Part shown: one piece after another, positions 506-36,953 of the stretch
Numbering within the stretch: the first letter of the stretch is position 1
Layout of the letters: the number at the start of each line of letters is the position of its first letter
Assembly: GCA_012520995.1 (NCBI GenBank)
Contig: JAAYNI010000067.1
Coordinates: 124,001-188,000, forward strand
DNA length: 64,000 nt
From: Candidatus Rifleibacteriota bacterium
GTDB lineage: Bacteria > Muiribacteriota > Ozemobacteria > Ozemobacterales > Ozemobacteraceae
Direction of reading: 5' to 3'
Made by a program: the position numbers and the translations under genes
The notes under the pieces: model-generated
Told to the model about the DNA's origin: nothing
Seen by the model: the letters and a program-made list of their open reading frames with translations, nothing else
Databases searched by the model: none

Positions 506-558
506 GATATTAGTTCTGGTAGACTGTTGCAACTAAATGTTCTTTTAGAATTTTCATC

Positions 559-588
559 CACAGATGGACACAGATTCACACAGATGAG
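559..588. repeat. 10-base tandem repeat (CACAGATnnn x3)
   Basis: Three consecutive units beginning CACAGAT with exact spacing 10 (559, 569, 579), the last three bases varying. The reverse complement of the same motif occurs at 15830-15849, 17108-17126 and 32022-32040, always next to a hairpin. Confidence 0.85.
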
Positions 589-597
589 GGCAAAACT

Positions 598-642
598 GGT
601 CAAAAATTGCATTCTGCTACTGCATAATCACAATTTTTGACC
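598..642. repeat. Perfect 12-base inverted repeat
   Basis: GGTCAAAAATTG (598-609) is exactly complementary to CAATTTTTGACC (631-642) around a 21-base loop. There is no T-run on either side, so it is not an ordinary terminator. Confidence 0.8.
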
Positions 643-702
643 TAGCCTCTGATTAAGGGCAGATGGTGATGAACAATGTAATAGGGGAGCTAAAGAATTC
701 AA

Positions 703-723
703 CTCGCCACTCACCACTCGCCA
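703..723. repeat. 7-base tandem repeat (CTCGCCA/CTCACCA x3)
   Basis: Three units in strict 7-base phase at 703, 710 and 717. It lies inside the block shared with 31833-31912, where the equivalent positions read GAGTGGC-type units on the other strand. Confidence 0.8.
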
Positions 724-784
724 CGGTGCGATCTTAGTAGCAGCCAACTATGATTTATTGTTGAGCAAGATGTATTTTAAAAGG
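705..784 (-). repeat. Dispersed intergenic block, copy 1
   Basis: The reverse complement of these 80 bases matches 31833-31912 at 71 of 80 positions without gaps, including the exact stretch CTAAGATCGCACCGTG. Both copies are intergenic and neither encodes an extended reading frame. They may be remnants or active copies of a dispersed non-coding element. Confidence 0.85.
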
Positions 785-825
785 ATCTTTATGTTTATCT
801 GATGCAGCAGCCGCCACTGTTTTTT

Positions 826-15788: not shown

Positions 15789-15819
15789 CTGTGATTTTAA
15801 CCTATGCTTAAAATCACAG
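15789..15819. repeat. Perfect 12-base hairpin of the TTTTAAGC family
   Basis: CTGTGATTTTAA (15789-15800) and TTAAAATCACAG (15808-15819) around a 7-base loop. Versions of the same hairpin, followed by the same tail, occur at 17081-17103 and 31997-32015. Confidence 0.85.
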
Positions 15820-15829
15820 CTATGTTAAT

Positions 15830-15849
15830 CTGTGTCCATCTGTGGATAG
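15830..15849. repeat. 10-base tandem motif CTGTGTCCATCTGTGGATAG
   Basis: Two units of ATCTGTGnnn-type spacing. Same motif as 17108-17126 and 32022-32040 and the reverse complement of 559-588. Confidence 0.8.
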
Positions 15850-15906
15850 AAGAATATCATACTCGATGATAAACTATTTGGATAAATAGAATACCAGGAG
15901 GATTCA

Positions 15907-16686: not shown

Positions 16687-16744
16687 TGCTTTTTCAGCTA
16701 AAACTTTATTATCGTCTATGTTTTTTCTGCCTGCTATAAAAATA

Positions 16745-16772
16745 GTGAGTTGTGGACTGTGGACGGTGGACA
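16745..16772. repeat. 7-base tandem repeat (GTGGACn x4)
   Basis: Units start at 16745, 16752, 16759 and 16766: GTGAGTT and three GTGGACn. Confidence 0.8.
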
Positions 16773-16815
16773 GAGAGGGCAATTAACATCAGTGATGAGT
16801 GGCGAAAACTTCAAA

Positions 16816-16843
16816 GGAGTAGGGGTTAGGGTGTAGGGAGTAG
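16816..16843. repeat. 7-base tandem repeat (GGAGTAG type x4)
   Basis: Units GGAGTAG, GGGTTAG, GGTGTAG and GGAGTAG in exact 7-base phase. The same family of units occurs at 27832-27859. Confidence 0.8.
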
Positions 16844-16900
16844 CCTAGCCCAAGGGCCAAGAGGTGGGGGCGAGTGGCGGGTGACGAGTTGATTGTTTAG

Positions 16901-16932
16901 AACTCAATTCTTGAAACTGATAACTGCTTTGG
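16901..16932 (+). repeat. ACTCAATT..TGAAACTGATAA block, copy E
   Basis: Matches 31926-31957 at 26 of 32 positions. It is preceded by the same GAGTTGATTGTTTAG as at 31912. Confidence 0.75.
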
Positions 16933-17052
16933 ACTGCTGATAAATAGTTGAAACTCTTGGATTCAAAATAAAAACAAAACTATCAAAAACGAAGTTTTGG
17001 CATAATTTTTGCCCTGTCGCTGCTTTCTCATGTATGTTGTTCCTTCTCTCCC

Positions 17053-17080
17053 GCTACTCGCCACCCGCCACACAACACTG
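17053..17080. repeat. 7-base tandem repeat (CGCCACn type x4)
   Basis: Units CGCTACT, CGCCACC, CGCCACA and CAACACT in exact phase, directly before the palindrome. Confidence 0.75.
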
Positions 17081-17126
17081 ATTTTTAAGCTAGCTTAAAA
17101 ATCCTATCTGTGTAATCTGTGGATAG
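17081..17126. repeat. Palindrome plus CTGTGTAATCTGTGGATAG
   Basis: TTTTAAGCTAGCTTAAAA (17084-17101) is a perfect palindrome, extended by GAT/ATC with one bulge. The 10-base motif follows at 17108-17126. Same arrangement as 15789-15849 and 31997-32040. Confidence 0.85.
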
Positions 17127-26778: not shown

Positions 26779-27744
26779 ATGTCTGAATATTCCGACTTTG
26801 GAAGCCTTGATCTTATCAATTTGCTTACACCGCCTAACATGCCTGATTTATATAATATCAAGGTGACAGAACTTGAATCTGAAGCTTTGTTGTCTTTTGA
26901 TGAGCCTTTGCCTTTTTCAGATGCTTCTGTACAATCGTCTAAGATTTTATCAAAGAAAACGGAGATAGCATCTGTAAAATCTGGAGAATTGTCTTCTTCT
27001 ACGGGGCCAGTTGCTCCCGAAAGTGTTAAGGCGAGTAATTCTTCCTCGCCAAGAGAAGTATCTTATACGCGCAGACCTATGGCAAACCTTCCTTCTTTGT
27101 CAGTAAGGGAGCGTGAGCGTCTGGAGAAAATAGAAGAAATCCTTGCCGCTCCGCCAATAGAAAATGATTCATTAGAAAAGCTTGTTGCTGATATAGCGGC
27201 CTGTACTAATTGCCCTTTAAGCGTTACAAGAAAAAACACTGTGCCTGGACATGGCAATCCTAAAGCGAGGCTTATGCTGATTGGCGAAGCGCCTGGAGCA
27301 GGCGAGGATGAAGCGGGGCTTCCGTTTGTAGGCAAAGCAGGACAGCATCTAGACAAGATTATAGCGGCTGCAGGCTTTGATAAAAGTGAATTGTATATTT
27401 GCAATATACTCAAATGCCGTCCTCCGATGAACCGTGACCCATCCATGGAAGAAATGCGGCTATGCACGCCGTTTTTGGACCGTCAGATAAACATAATAAA
27501 GCCTGATTTGCTGGTTTGTTTGGGAAATGTAGCTATCAGATATATAATTTCGCCCGCTGCGCCTGGCGTTTCCAAGATACATGGGCAGTGGTTTGATTCT
27601 ATTTTCAAAATTCCCGCCATGCCTATGTACCATCCTTCCGCATTGATACGCTCTGAAAGCCGTGCAAAAGGCAGTCCTAACTGGGTGACATGGCAAGATG
27701 TGAAGGCTCTGAAGAAGAAATACGATTCGCTCACTAAAAACTAG
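26779..27744 (+). CDS. Uracil-DNA glycosylase, family 4
   Basis: Iron-sulfur uracil-DNA glycosylase for base-excision repair. The catalytic domain occupies about residues 125-315: ACTNCPL, MLIGEAPGAGEDEAGLPFVG, ILKCRPP, LCTPFL (cluster cysteines) and MYHPSALIR. Residues 1-120 are a low-complexity Ser/Glu-rich extension of the kind often seen in this family. The start at 26779 follows AGGTG by 5 bases; TTG 26764 overlaps the rel stop and is less likely. Last gene of the yicC-to-UDG run. Confidence 0.9.
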   Translation: MSEYSDFGSLDLINLLTPPNMPDLYNIKVTELESEALLSFDEPLPFSDASVQSSKILSKKTEIASVKSGELSSSTGPVAPESVKASNSSSPREVSYTRRPMANLPSLSVRERERLEKIEEILAAPPIENDSLEKLVADIAACTNCPLSVTRKNTVPGHGNPKARLMLIGEAPGAGEDEAGLPFVGKAGQHLDKIIAAAGFDKSELYICNILKCRPPMNRDPSMEEMRLCTPFLDRQINIIKPDLLVCLGNVAIRYIISPAAPGVSKIHGQWFDSIFKIPAMPMYHPSALIRSESRAKGSPNWVTWQDVKALKKKYDSLTKN

Positions 27745-27831
27745 TGCTTTGTTGCAGCTAAAAGTTACCCATAAAATCTTATTCTGCGTTTTAACCGATT
27801 AGTTTATTTCAGATGCTACAGTCGCACTAGA

Positions 27832-27859
27832 GGGAGTAGGGAGTAGGGTGTCGGGGGTA
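27832..27859. repeat. 7-base tandem repeat (GGGAGTA x4)
   Basis: Units GGGAGTA, GGGAGTA, GGGTGTC and GGGGGTA start at 27832, 27839, 27846 and 27853. Confidence 0.85.
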
Positions 27860-27868
27860 GTGAAATTT

Positions 27869-27900
27869 GACTCAATTGCTGAAACGGATAATTGCTTTGA
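27869..27900 (+). repeat. ACTCAATTGCTGAAAC block, copy F
   Basis: Identical to 31926-31957 at 30 of 32 positions and in the same orientation. The two copies bracket the pilin-like operon at 28197-31810. Confidence 0.85.
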
Positions 27901-28122
27901 CTTGCTGATAACTATATGAAGTTTTGAATAAAAAAAAGATTATAAGCTAATAAAACTTAAATAATCTAAAGCAAAGAAAAAAAATAAAAAAAATGCGGCA
28001 GAATATATCTATAAAAATACTTACAAATATTTATTATGAGTCGAAAAGCAGGATATTAGACTCGCGAGCGGGCTTCCAGTTTTTTGCTGCCCATGGTTAG
28101 CATCACGCACCACTGCTTATTC

Positions 28123-29414: not shown

Positions 29415-31810
29415 TTAATTTTTCAAAACGGCGCGCTCAAGCAATGATTTTTGTCCTTATAGCCATAGCTATTATTTCAGCCTATTTTGCTTTTGTTCTG
29501 CTTTTTCAGCAAAACCAAACAGCGCTTTTGTCGAAATCAGCTAAGGATTATATGGCTGTTTGCGTTGCTGAAACAGGTTTGCACTGTCTCCTTGCTGAGA
29601 TGAAGGCGGATTATCAATTTGTGACCCATGGAAATATATATGTTCCGGTCAAAGGATGGGGAACTTCTTCAAAGAGTCAAAAGTTTAATTATATAAAAGG
29701 CAACGAACATGTTGAGTTAGCAAAAAACACAAATGGAAACTACGAAGGAACGGTAAACTTCAAGGAGGTTGGTGAAAAAGGCCAGTTTAAAGCTCGTGTA
29801 AAACTGCTTGCCGCTAAAAATGCTACTGAGACTAAGACTATTGATGAATCTCACGCATACTTTTTATTGGAGTCTTTTGGCAAGGTCGGAGATTCTTGCA
29901 AACGTGTTTCAGCAATTTTACAAAAAATCACTCCTGGAAACTATCTGTTTTATGACGGAGATATACTTGATCTCGGCGGTTATGGCCCTAATCGTTTGCG
30001 AAAAGGTATAATAACTGGCGGACGTATATATGGACACGAGATGCTGGTTTTTTCCAAAAAAGGTAAAAGTGACTCAGGGCTTGCTTTCGAAGATGTGGAA
30101 AAAATATCGACTCCAGGAGCTATTGTAGCATACGATACATTTCCTATTGATTTTCCTGGTGGCAAAAAGGGTTCTATAAGCACTAAAAATGATTCTTACA
30201 GCCAGAAAGATTTTGAAACTTACGGTGACGAATCTGGAGATATAACTATAAATGGTAAGCTTTTGGACGGACCCCACGGAGCAAAGTCTGAAAAACTCCC
30301 AGCGCTTAATCCAAAATATTACAGAGAAGCTACTCGTCCGTCTCCAACTATTCTTTCAGCAGGCTCAAGCTTTGACGGTTTTAAAGAGTCAAAATGGAAA
30401 AATCCTTTGAAGCCTTCGGAGACAGTTTATGACCTCTTCTTTGGTTGGAAATTTGAGCAAAAAGGAGATAATTGTCTTATTTACTCTGAAGTTCCTTTGA
30501 GAATTTGGGGCAATCCTCCTTATAAGGCGCTTACAATATTTTGTGAGAAAGATGTCTATATAGCAGGCGATTTGAATACAAACCCTCTTGCTCCTCAAAG
30601 ATATGAGCCAGGTTATTCAAAGCTGGCTTATCAGCCTAAAAACGGCCGCGATAAAAACGGACTCCAAATATTATCCATGGGACGCATTTGGTTTGACTAT
30701 TCGAATCCGATGAACTTTATGAGAAATGAACTTCATACGCTTATAGACTATGATTTGGCGAATTCACTGTCAGCTACAAAATTAAATACTTCTTTATTGA
30801 AGGAGATAGTTTTTCCTAAGAGAGATTCACATAAAACCTACAAGAGACTCCCTTTTACTTTTATCAACTTTTCAGCTTTGAACTCTATGTATCACATGCC
30901 AAAAGAATCCCTTGAAATGGATGCTGTGATTGCTGCTTCTTTGCCTTTTCATCCAGCTTTGAGAAAATTGCGTTCTTATCTTAACAAACCGGGAAAAGCT
31001 GAACCTGATAAATTGCCTAAAATGCCTTCTCAGACTCCTGAATTGGAAAGCGGGAATGCGGGAGTTTACAGCACGGAAACAGACAAGAAGCTTCTCATGC
31101 AAGATAATAAAACCAGGCCGCAAGCTCAGGATGATAATAATGAGGAGAGCGGCGGTTACATAGGCGGCACTGGGGAAAGCGAAGTACATTTTCCGATAGA
31201 AAGTGCGGCGGTTAGAGTAGGTATTTACGAAACTATAGGCGCTTTGGCTTATGCAACAGGAACTATTCCTCCCCAAGTGAGAGACAAAATAATTGAAAAG
31301 ATTTTAACTCAAGCAGAAAAAGAGATGTTTGATAAAAACGGCTCTCCTGTACCTGAATCGCCTGTTTGGACGGTTATGGACAGACTTATGAATACAGTTC
31401 TGGCTCACAGGGATACAGGTTTCAGGTTCCCTGAAATGACCGTTAATGCTTTATTGGTTGACTCTGCGGCGACAGATGTGAACTGGGATTTAGGAAACTC
31501 TGCTACGAAAACTCTTCAGGAGCTTGGCAACATAGCTGACGGTGCTATGAACTCTTTACCTTATACTAACAAAAATACCCGTTTTATTTTAAGACATCAC
31601 GGTTCCAGAATTCATCTTAGAACTGCTCCTTCAGATGTCAGCATTAAGAAAAAAGTTTCAGATGACCAGTCGGTAATGCGCAAAAACTCTTTTGATAATA
31701 CTTTTGTCAGAGGCGGCGGCGATTACTTTCCTCCTTATCCGATGAACGGCTTCATCATGATTAACTGGGAAGAATCAAGTATTACACCTGAAGAATTCAA
31801 AGACATCTAG
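29411..31810 (+). CDS. PilX/GspK-like large minor pilin subunit
   Basis: The 799-residue product starts with a basic stretch and a hydrophobic helix (RRAQAMIFVLIAIAIISAYFAF split at the cleavage region), lacking Glu at +5 as GspK and PilX do. It comes third after PilV- and PilW-like genes, the usual minor-pilin order. It is far longer than GspK (about 330) or PilX (about 200): residues 60-790 form a large exported domain with a disordered, Gln/Asn/Gly-rich section around 530-585. This suggests a tip adhesin-type minor pilin. Stops just before locus G and faces the giant lipoprotein. Confidence 0.7.
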   Translation: MINFSKRRAQAMIFVLIAIAIISAYFAFVLLFQQNQTALLSKSAKDYMAVCVAETGLHCLLAEMKADYQFVTHGNIYVPVKGWGTSSKSQKFNYIKGNEHVELAKNTNGNYEGTVNFKEVGEKGQFKARVKLLAAKNATETKTIDESHAYFLLESFGKVGDSCKRVSAILQKITPGNYLFYDGDILDLGGYGPNRLRKGIITGGRIYGHEMLVFSKKGKSDSGLAFEDVEKISTPGAIVAYDTFPIDFPGGKKGSISTKNDSYSQKDFETYGDESGDITINGKLLDGPHGAKSEKLPALNPKYYREATRPSPTILSAGSSFDGFKESKWKNPLKPSETVYDLFFGWKFEQKGDNCLIYSEVPLRIWGNPPYKALTIFCEKDVYIAGDLNTNPLAPQRYEPGYSKLAYQPKNGRDKNGLQILSMGRIWFDYSNPMNFMRNELHTLIDYDLANSLSATKLNTSLLKEIVFPKRDSHKTYKRLPFTFINFSALNSMYHMPKESLEMDAVIAASLPFHPALRKLRSYLNKPGKAEPDKLPKMPSQTPELESGNAGVYSTETDKKLLMQDNKTRPQAQDDNNEESGGYIGGTGESEVHFPIESAAVRVGIYETIGALAYATGTIPPQVRDKIIEKILTQAEKEMFDKNGSPVPESPVWTVMDRLMNTVLAHRDTGFRFPEMTVNALLVDSAATDVNWDLGNSATKTLQELGNIADGAMNSLPYTNKNTRFILRHHGSRIHLRTAPSDVSIKKKVSDDQSVMRKNSFDNTFVRGGGDYFPPYPMNGFIMINWEESSITPEEFKDI

Positions 31811-31832
31811 TTCTGTGTTGCAACTAAAATTT

Positions 31833-31912
31833 CCTTTTAAAAGACATCTTGCTCTACAATAAATCATTGTTGGCAGCTGCTAAGATCGCACCGTGATGAG
31901 TGGCGGGTGGCG
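31833..31912 (+). repeat. Dispersed intergenic block, copy 2
   Basis: Matches the reverse complement of 705-784 at 71 of 80 positions with no gaps. Confidence 0.85.
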
Positions 31913-31925
31913 AGTTGATTGTTTA

Positions 31926-31957
31926 GACTCAATTGCTGAAACTGATAATTGATTTGA
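31926..31957 (+). repeat. ACTCAATTGCTGAAAC block, copy G
   Basis: 30 of 32 identical to 27869-27900 and 26 of 32 to 16901-16932. Confidence 0.85.
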
Positions 31958-31967
31958 GATGCTGCTG

Positions 31968-31995
31968 CACCCTACGCCCTAACCCCTACTCCCTG
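31968..31995. repeat. 7-base tandem repeat (CnCCCTA x4)
   Basis: CACCCTA, CGCCCTA, ACCCCTA and CTCCCTG in exact phase; the reverse complement resembles the GGGAGTA units of locus F. Confidence 0.8.
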
Positions 31996-31996
31996 A

Positions 31997-32040
31997 TTTT
32001 AAGCTATGCTTAAAACCCCCTCTGTGTCATCTGTGGATAG
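31997..32040. repeat. TTTTAAGC hairpin plus CTGTGTCATCTGTGGATAG
   Basis: TTTTAAGC (31997-32004), loop TAT and GCTTAAAA (32008-32015), then the 10-base motif at 32022-32040. Confidence 0.85.
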
Positions 32041-32086
32041 AAAAAATCTGTTCGATAATAAACATTTAGATTTTACAGACTTCTAG

Positions 32087-36702: not shown

Positions 36703-36750
36703 AATCTTAGAAGGCGGTTTGACCGCACTTTAACGTTCTTTGACTTTTTT

Positions 36751-36940
36751 CCCTGCGTTGTTCGTGATGGTGCAGGTTAAATTGAGCCGACACCTGTTCC
36801 ACAAGGGAATCCATCTCTGCGCTGCTTCAGGGTTACTTACGACCGGGTGTAACCCGCTACGAAGTCCTGTCGCTACCGCAGGCGGACAACCATACTAATA
36901 AAGTGGGTTCAATTTCTTCCTTTACACGGCAATTGCGGGG
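36751..36940 (+). ncRNA. ssrS: 6S RNA (SsrS)
   Basis: 6S RNA mimics an open promoter and sequesters housekeeping RNA polymerase. This 190-base segment folds as the expected rod. The closing stem is CCCTGCGTTG (36751-36760) with CAATTGCGGGG (36930-36940, one bulge), followed by TTCG. A second stem joins AAATTGAGCC and GGGTTCAATTT. A large internal bubble, a CTGCG/CGCAG stem and an apical hairpin GGGTTAC/GTAACCC lie further in. The 5' TGTTCG-type start and GACACCTGTTCCAC stretch resemble known 6S RNAs. tmRNA, SRP RNA and RNase P hallmarks are absent. A terminator follows at 36954. No protein frame explains the conservation. Confidence 0.8.
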
Positions 36941-36953
36941 TCTGAAAACTAAG

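Follow-up and report, generated by a model that had tools for sequence, protein, structure and literature searches.

The repeated hairpin-linked phrase of about 19–20 letters in this DNA is located in small transposon-like intergenic repeats of a Candidatus Riflebacteria genome, where the hairpin-plus-phrase module lies inside MITE-like elements with terminal inverted repeats (TIRs) that end in CTAG. The reading we favor, with a probability of about 0.6, has two layers: a MITE-like family in this genome, and a wider, cross-phylum class of inverted arms to which the phrase also belongs. For this genome, what had appeared to be an RNA motif gives way to a MITE-like family whose copies break up the assembly and occupy intergenic space.

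Inspection of the window (the whole 64,000-nucleotide stretch of DNA that was analyzed) located all four loci at which the initial annotation had placed the module (Table 1). Its pattern for the phrase, CTGTGTnnATCTGTGGAT, is exact at 556-573 (minus strand) and 15830-15847 (plus strand); the other two copies deviate in having a gap of one base, not two, and read CTGTGT-A-ATCTGTGG at 17106-17126 and CTGTGT-C-ATCTGTGG at 32020-32040. The proposed hairpin at 15789 is present, but its sequence is TTTTAACC..GCTTAAAA, not the TTTTAAGC given for it; the stem contains a C-C mismatch, and CTGTG/CACAG lengthens the outer stem. The perfect 12-bp stem described for locus A, GGTCAAAAATTG/CAATTTTTGACC, can be read directly from the sequence (598-609/631-642). 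The label "decamer" is too short, the phrase being the end of a three-unit arm with 10-bp units, (ATCTGTGTNN)2ATCTGTGGATA. In the window, the phrase has two matches (≤2 mismatches) versus 0.01 expected, and the hairpin alone has five (≤3 mismatches) versus 1.75 expected, a count that 4 of 100 shuffles reach. By itself, the hairpin is without clear significance in the window; it is the genome-wide coupling to the phrase that stands out.

Table 1. Coordinates of phrase, hairpin and terminal-repeat features in the window.
Feature	Position	Strand	Basis
MITE-like element holding locus A; left end decayed near 780-800	516..800	-	
Clear right repeat of the 516..800 element, CTGGTAGACTGTTGCAACTAAA	516-537	sequence given on +	
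Phrase arm, three units, CATCTGTGTGAATCTGTGTCCATCTGTGGAT	556..588	-	
Hairpin C with a 12-bp stem, GGTCAAAAATTG/CAATTTTTGACC; precedes the phrase when read on the minus strand	598..642	-	
Hairpin A type, CTGTGATTTTAAcCTATGcTTAAAATCACAG, extended outer stem, one C-C mismatch	15789..15819	+	sequence, family comparison
Phrase arm, three 10-bp units, CTATGTTA-ATCTGTGTCC-ATCTGTGGATAG	15820..15849	+	sequence; cross-phylum profile
Possible decayed right terminal repeat, weak (9/22 mismatches)	15876..15897	+	
Hairpin B, GATTTTTAAGCTAGCTTAAAAATC, after a CTCGCCAC word like other B copies	17080..17103	+	
Phrase, ATCTGTGTAATCTGTGGATAG, one-base gap form	17106..17126	+	
Terminal repeat of the MITE-like TIR family, CTAGTGCTTTGTTGCAGCTAAAA, no phrase adjoining	27741..27763	+	
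Complete MITE-like element (280 bp) with CTAG termini; contains the third locus	31807..32086	+	
Left terminal inverted repeat, CTAGTTCTGTGTTGCAACTAAAA	31807..31829	+	
Hairpin A, GATTTTAAGCTATGCTTAAAACC	31995..32017	+	
Phrase, CTCTGTGTCATCTGTGGATAG	32020..32040	+	
Right terminal inverted repeat, TTTAGATTTTACAGACTTCTAG	32065..32086	+	

Genome-wide, there are 69 copies of the phrase in both orientations (≤1 mismatch, 2.84 Mb) and none of the reversed control. The module is indeed a repeated one; what the initial annotation overlooked are the terminal inverted repeats and the fact that elsewhere the phrase is an arm of an inverted pair. None of the 57 distinct copies in the genome stretches that were read is coding according to a simple ORF caller, although 85% of the examined sequence is coding, and just 3 of 49 placed copies fall in gaps between divergent genes. 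No match to the repeat or the phrase above the Rfam gathering score was found. Several near-identical copies are located at contig ends, and many contigs end within such copies (e.g., C30:84, C50:81, C77:65, and C86:134). Because contigs break inside near-identical copies, the repeat family limits the assembly, and the true copy number is probably higher.

Downstream of many phrase copies lies ...AACATTTAGATGTTACAGACTACTAG, with its complement further upstream, forming TIRs that end in CTAG. TIR-like ends number at least 129 (≤2 mismatches), compared to one in the reversed control. A right TIR is found ≤90 bp downstream of 26 of the 57 phrase copies, mostly ending at 48-51 bp, compared to 1.15% of random 90-mers. 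The listed TIR pairs number 21, of which 18, with lengths of 161-572 bp, were interpreted as complete elements with exchangeable inner modules; the remaining pairs are ~2 kb apart and are probably separate elements. At the window's own loci, the search downstream of phrase copies recognized no terminal repeat beside the phrase at 17106..17126, and the weak candidate at 15876..15897 has the expected spacing from its phrase, about 50 bp. Adjacent elements have one CTAG in common, with CTAG at both ends of an element; a single CTAG between neighbors is what CTAG insertion with a 4-bp duplication would give. Being short, non-coding, intergenic, dispersed, and multi-copy, with TIRs and short palindromic target-like ends (CTAG), the elements resemble MITEs (reviewed in PMC10969869). 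They differ in that their interiors are mosaics in which words and hairpins can be exchanged, that no partner transposase was found among the families sought, and that the phrase inside them also occurs across phyla without these TIRs.

In these mosaics, hairpin A (GATTTTAAGC..) comes after a CCCTAC..CCCT word, hairpin B (GATTTTTAAGC..) after a CGCCAC..CACT word, and hairpin C, the stem of locus A, after a TTAATCAGAGG word, and each of the three can precede the phrase. Hairpin C is present between CATCTGT repeats in one copy (L042) and missing from between them in another (L040), which suggests module loss via short direct repeats. The initial annotation took stems that keep pairing as a hint of selection for structure; on this view, the module would be an RNA or single-stranded DNA hairpin plus tag under such selection. 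The stems are strong and mostly intact, but the 19 copies of hairpin A contain no two-sided change, and their pairing (94.2%) is no better than that of column-shuffled copies (94.3%). Hairpin B has one two-sided change in 12 copies, and hairpin C has four in 18, three of them at one pair. Compensatory evolution of the stems is not visible in the phrase-bearing copies within this genome, and by the test that the annotation itself had set, the structural inference fails here. Hairpins A and B are copy families behind two different upstream words, not one compensating structure; moreover, three unrelated hairpins, or none, precede the same phrase.

These elements were quite probably transposed by a lost or unseen transposase. 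None matching the TIRs was found among the three families sought in this genome (Y1_Tnp, DDE_5, and DDE_Tnp_1): PF01797 (Y1_Tnp) and PF13546 (DDE_5, IS701-type) are absent, and the single DDE_Tnp_1 gene (PF01609; L237, G000:C93:4707-5195) was rejected as partner, its ends, GGGTCTGTTGAACAT/CAACAGGCCCTAG, being only partly MITE-like. Distant TIRs were also considered as the borders of an autonomous element, but the 2.2-kb pair in L189 holds a XerC-like integrase and another gene and is therefore probably two separate elements. The TIR is absent from 36 genomes of relatives, the nearest of which belong to other genera, and from the 800 kb of sequence examined in other phrase-bearing genomes. In the first layer of our account, the hairpin and phrase would constitute a module inside non-coding MITE-like elements (~160-570 bp) with CTAG-ended TIRs of ~22 bp, situated at the right-hand end of the element. 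Presumably, a transposase acting in trans moved these elements; it may now be missing, unassembled, or unrecognized, and the hairpins would be passengers copied along with the elements.

The phrase itself extends much further, and the statement in the initial annotation that it is scattered through the intergenic DNA of unrelated phyla is borne out for at least 12 phyla. An exact 19-letter match occurs in at least 112 genome contigs versus about 2 expected by base counting, and the matches listed include Spirochaetota, Pseudomonadota, Cyanobacteria, Lentisphaerota/Verrucomicrobiota, Planctomycetota, Chloroflexota, Bacteroidota, Acidobacteriota, Bacillota, Armatimonadota, WOR-3, and Riflebacteria. 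Complete isolate chromosomes are among the records, so the matches cannot all stem from binning error. A shortened pattern was present in 16 of 16 genomes examined, 15 of them with several copies (up to 66), and the reversed pattern in none. The distribution is patchy, with the phrase found in 2 of the 37 genomes of the relatives search, its own genome included. A 19-letter wording that recurs in the intergenic DNA of at least 12 phyla, in inverted pairs about half of the time and, in the Bacteroides cases compared, with unrelated loops, does not readily follow from vertical descent, from chance, or from an element that is copied and pasted in the ordinary way. Two carriers were considered and rejected. 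Exact matches occur in just 4 contigs among 2.9 million viral contigs, and the Bacteroides finegoldii "plasmids" in PLSDB (NZ_OY725969.1, NZ_OY725952.1, and NZ_OY725922.1) carry serC, guaA, and thrA/thrC and are apparently pieces of chromosome. No published description of the phrase was found in literature searches, including searches by literal sequence strings, nor was an established function, as the initial annotation had it.

Among the cross-phylum matches listed, an inverted partner within 200 bp lies upstream of 60 and downstream of 4 of 118 distinct copies, and about half of the copies are without a recognizable partner arm; the same test gave an inverted partner for 0 of 44 copies in the Riflebacteria genome. 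The arm consists of three 10-bp units, each with eight fixed and two freer (NN) bases, and the loop is unconserved. In the profile, the third unit is conserved though the search pattern did not require it, and conservation ends past it. As the pattern did require GGATA, dialects are undersampled across phyla. The NN bases have weak complementarity between arms, slightly above shuffled (p about 0.02-0.05, cross-phylum), which argues that the wording is constant, rather than pairing alone. Just 6 of 77 placed copies lie in divergent gaps, although such gaps contain 24% of intergenic bases, and orientation is unbiased between tandem genes (27 sense, 23 antisense). T-runs are modest overall, with TTTT in 17 of 55 cases versus 8% in an all-sequence background whose AT content is below that of intergenic DNA. 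These element and loop statistics are based on tens of copies.

Bacteroides elements were found by similarity and then compared at orthologous junctions. In 18 elements (15 from one genome plus 3 loci in B. finegoldii, one or more of them orthologous to a member of the 15), the arms are 89.7% identical and the loops 32.0%, versus 31.8% when shuffled. Because the arms are ~90% identical and the loops no better than shuffled, whole-element copying is not the explanation in Bacteroides; copied whole elements would share loops, unless loops diverge very fast. At the PGM-thrC junction, B. finegoldii has an inverted pair whose left arm provides the PGM stop codon, while many sister genomes have just 6-30 bp there and others have a differently worded inverted pair. 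At L235:2001-2063 and in L311, it is the left arm that ends the upstream gene with a stop codon (PGM ends ..TLTADYTD*). In the sister Bacteroides loci L249, L254, and L259, this junction is occupied by inverted quasi-repeats whose wording is unrelated (GTTGACAAGTTGAC, ACTTACAAACTTACAAACT, and GGCACATTAACAAATTGG). The serC junction has a pair in most species, in GAT or GAG wording, and only 13-16 bp in two species. In L304, GAT and GAG left arms stand side by side and a GAG right arm closes the pair. Presence and absence of elements between species amount to turnover. Among the closest genomes, the two clearest cases of a missing element resemble deletions between 6-7 bp direct repeats rather than sites that never received an insertion, so what Bacteroides shows is turnover, not gain.

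In 11 serC orthologs, 93% of the pair cells are paired, and there are 16 two-sided cells versus a shuffle mean of 7.5, a value that 0 of 500 shuffles reach; the count is lower in every slid register. Selection for structure, which the pairing of stems in the Riflebacteria genome does not bear out, does hold for the inverted-pair form as it occurs in these Bacteroides orthologs. As an explanation of the module as a whole, a structure under selection nevertheless appears quite unlikely given the hairpin A copies, the interchangeable hairpins, and the weakly complementary NN positions.

In the second layer of the two-layer account, the phrase would be one arm of cross-phylum intergenic inverted repeats, a class broader than the MITE-like elements, with the three-unit arm given above, its complement, and an unconserved loop between them. 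Such repeats would arise, move, or vanish between genes and would stay clear of divergent promoters; several of those in Bacteroides sit at the 3' end of a gene. As RNA, the inverted pair would form a long hairpin, and its most likely working would be that of a portable 3'-end hairpin, acting as terminator or mRNA end-protector. Long stable hairpins after stop codons, and a T-run past the right arm in several serC orthologs, are reminiscent of intrinsic (bidirectional) terminators, but most copies lack a clear U-tract, and conservation far exceeds the needs of pairing. We consider a role at gene 3' ends plausible, though at somewhat less than even odds, and slightly less so a dedicated, sequence-specific protein that would bind the arms and hold their wording constant. 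A further reading, rather doubtful, is that the phrase belongs, as one dialect, to an undescribed cross-phylum system for placing inverted arms in 9-10 bp units of fixed wording between genes while leaving the loop uncopied; if true, this would imply a sequence-specific protein or templated enzyme, widespread but absent from annotation. If real, the class would represent an unrecorded, widely common recognition system acting between genes, for which arms of defined sequence and the Bacteroides orthologous sites with and without arms offer concrete probes.

Another way to keep arms constant next to unrelated loops would be a motif like the DNA uptake sequences (DUS), with a receptor, or else biased uptake and recombination, maintaining the wording, the pairs doubling as terminators, and clades having their dialects. 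Known uptake sequences are 10-12-mers in hundreds to thousands of copies, whereas the arms here are about 30 bp, with tens of copies per genome and a patchy occurrence over unrelated phyla. These differences leave a DUS-like motif marginally less likely than the structural module, despite the GAT and GAG dialects at one orthologous site. The likeness to DUS extends to constant words, inverted pairs, clade dialects, and 3'-end placement (PMC3630211), and uptake-signal pairs that form terminators have been reported, according to work cited in PMC2267715.

The remaining alternatives are all very improbable. REP/BIME repeats, i.e., palindromes tagged with GTAG/CGTC and mobilized by a RAYT (Y1 HUH) transposase (PMC3733652, PMC2817692), are similarly small, intergenic, and multi-copy, with a one-sided tag beside the hairpin, and Y1_Tnp occurs in 14 of 16 phrase-bearing genomes. 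This reading is largely refuted, as Y1_Tnp is missing from both the Riflebacteria genome and the 66-copy Treponema Md513_bin18, and the phrase is at 0 of 20 Y1_Tnp loci examined in other genomes (mostly with ~1.5 kb flanks). Moreover, there is no GTAG/CGTC tag here, the arms are ~30 bp of 10-bp units, and their wording is common to at least 12 phyla. That the arms titrate DnaA was considered because the phrase end, when reverse-complemented, reads TTATCCACA, and the tail GGATAA gives a perfect DnaA box. GGATAA is found in 17 of 45 copies tallied in this genome, but GGATAG is found in 18 and other tails are common, the Bacteroides arms end in CTGTGGTGA, and the constraint sits in the repeated CTGTG units, not in the box. 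Finally, a templated polymerase, such as a reverse transcriptase that extends broken or hairpinned ends by fixed units of 9-10 bases, would write the same wording without whole-element copying and would fit the constant arms with unrelated loops, the quasi-tandem units of fixed period, and the different wordings at one site, but it is purely inferential.

Three further observations concern the surroundings of the phrase. In the Planctomycetaceae copies L114, L127, and L139, a separate GC-rich hairpin (CGGCGGGGTTTACCCCGC..) lies between or beside the phrase arms, paralleling hairpin A within the Riflebacteria copies. The window also holds further quasi-repeated intergenic words, AGTGGCGAGTGGCGAGTT, CCCTACTCCCTAACCCC, GTGGACAGTGGAC, and AATTAGAAATTAGAAATT, at 16740-17080, 27820-27905, and 31895-32000; they flank elements on either side in opposite orientation, with a period resembling that of the phrase. 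A 6S RNA is found at 36747-36945 of the window (Rfam RF00013, 47.1 bits, just over the gathering score).
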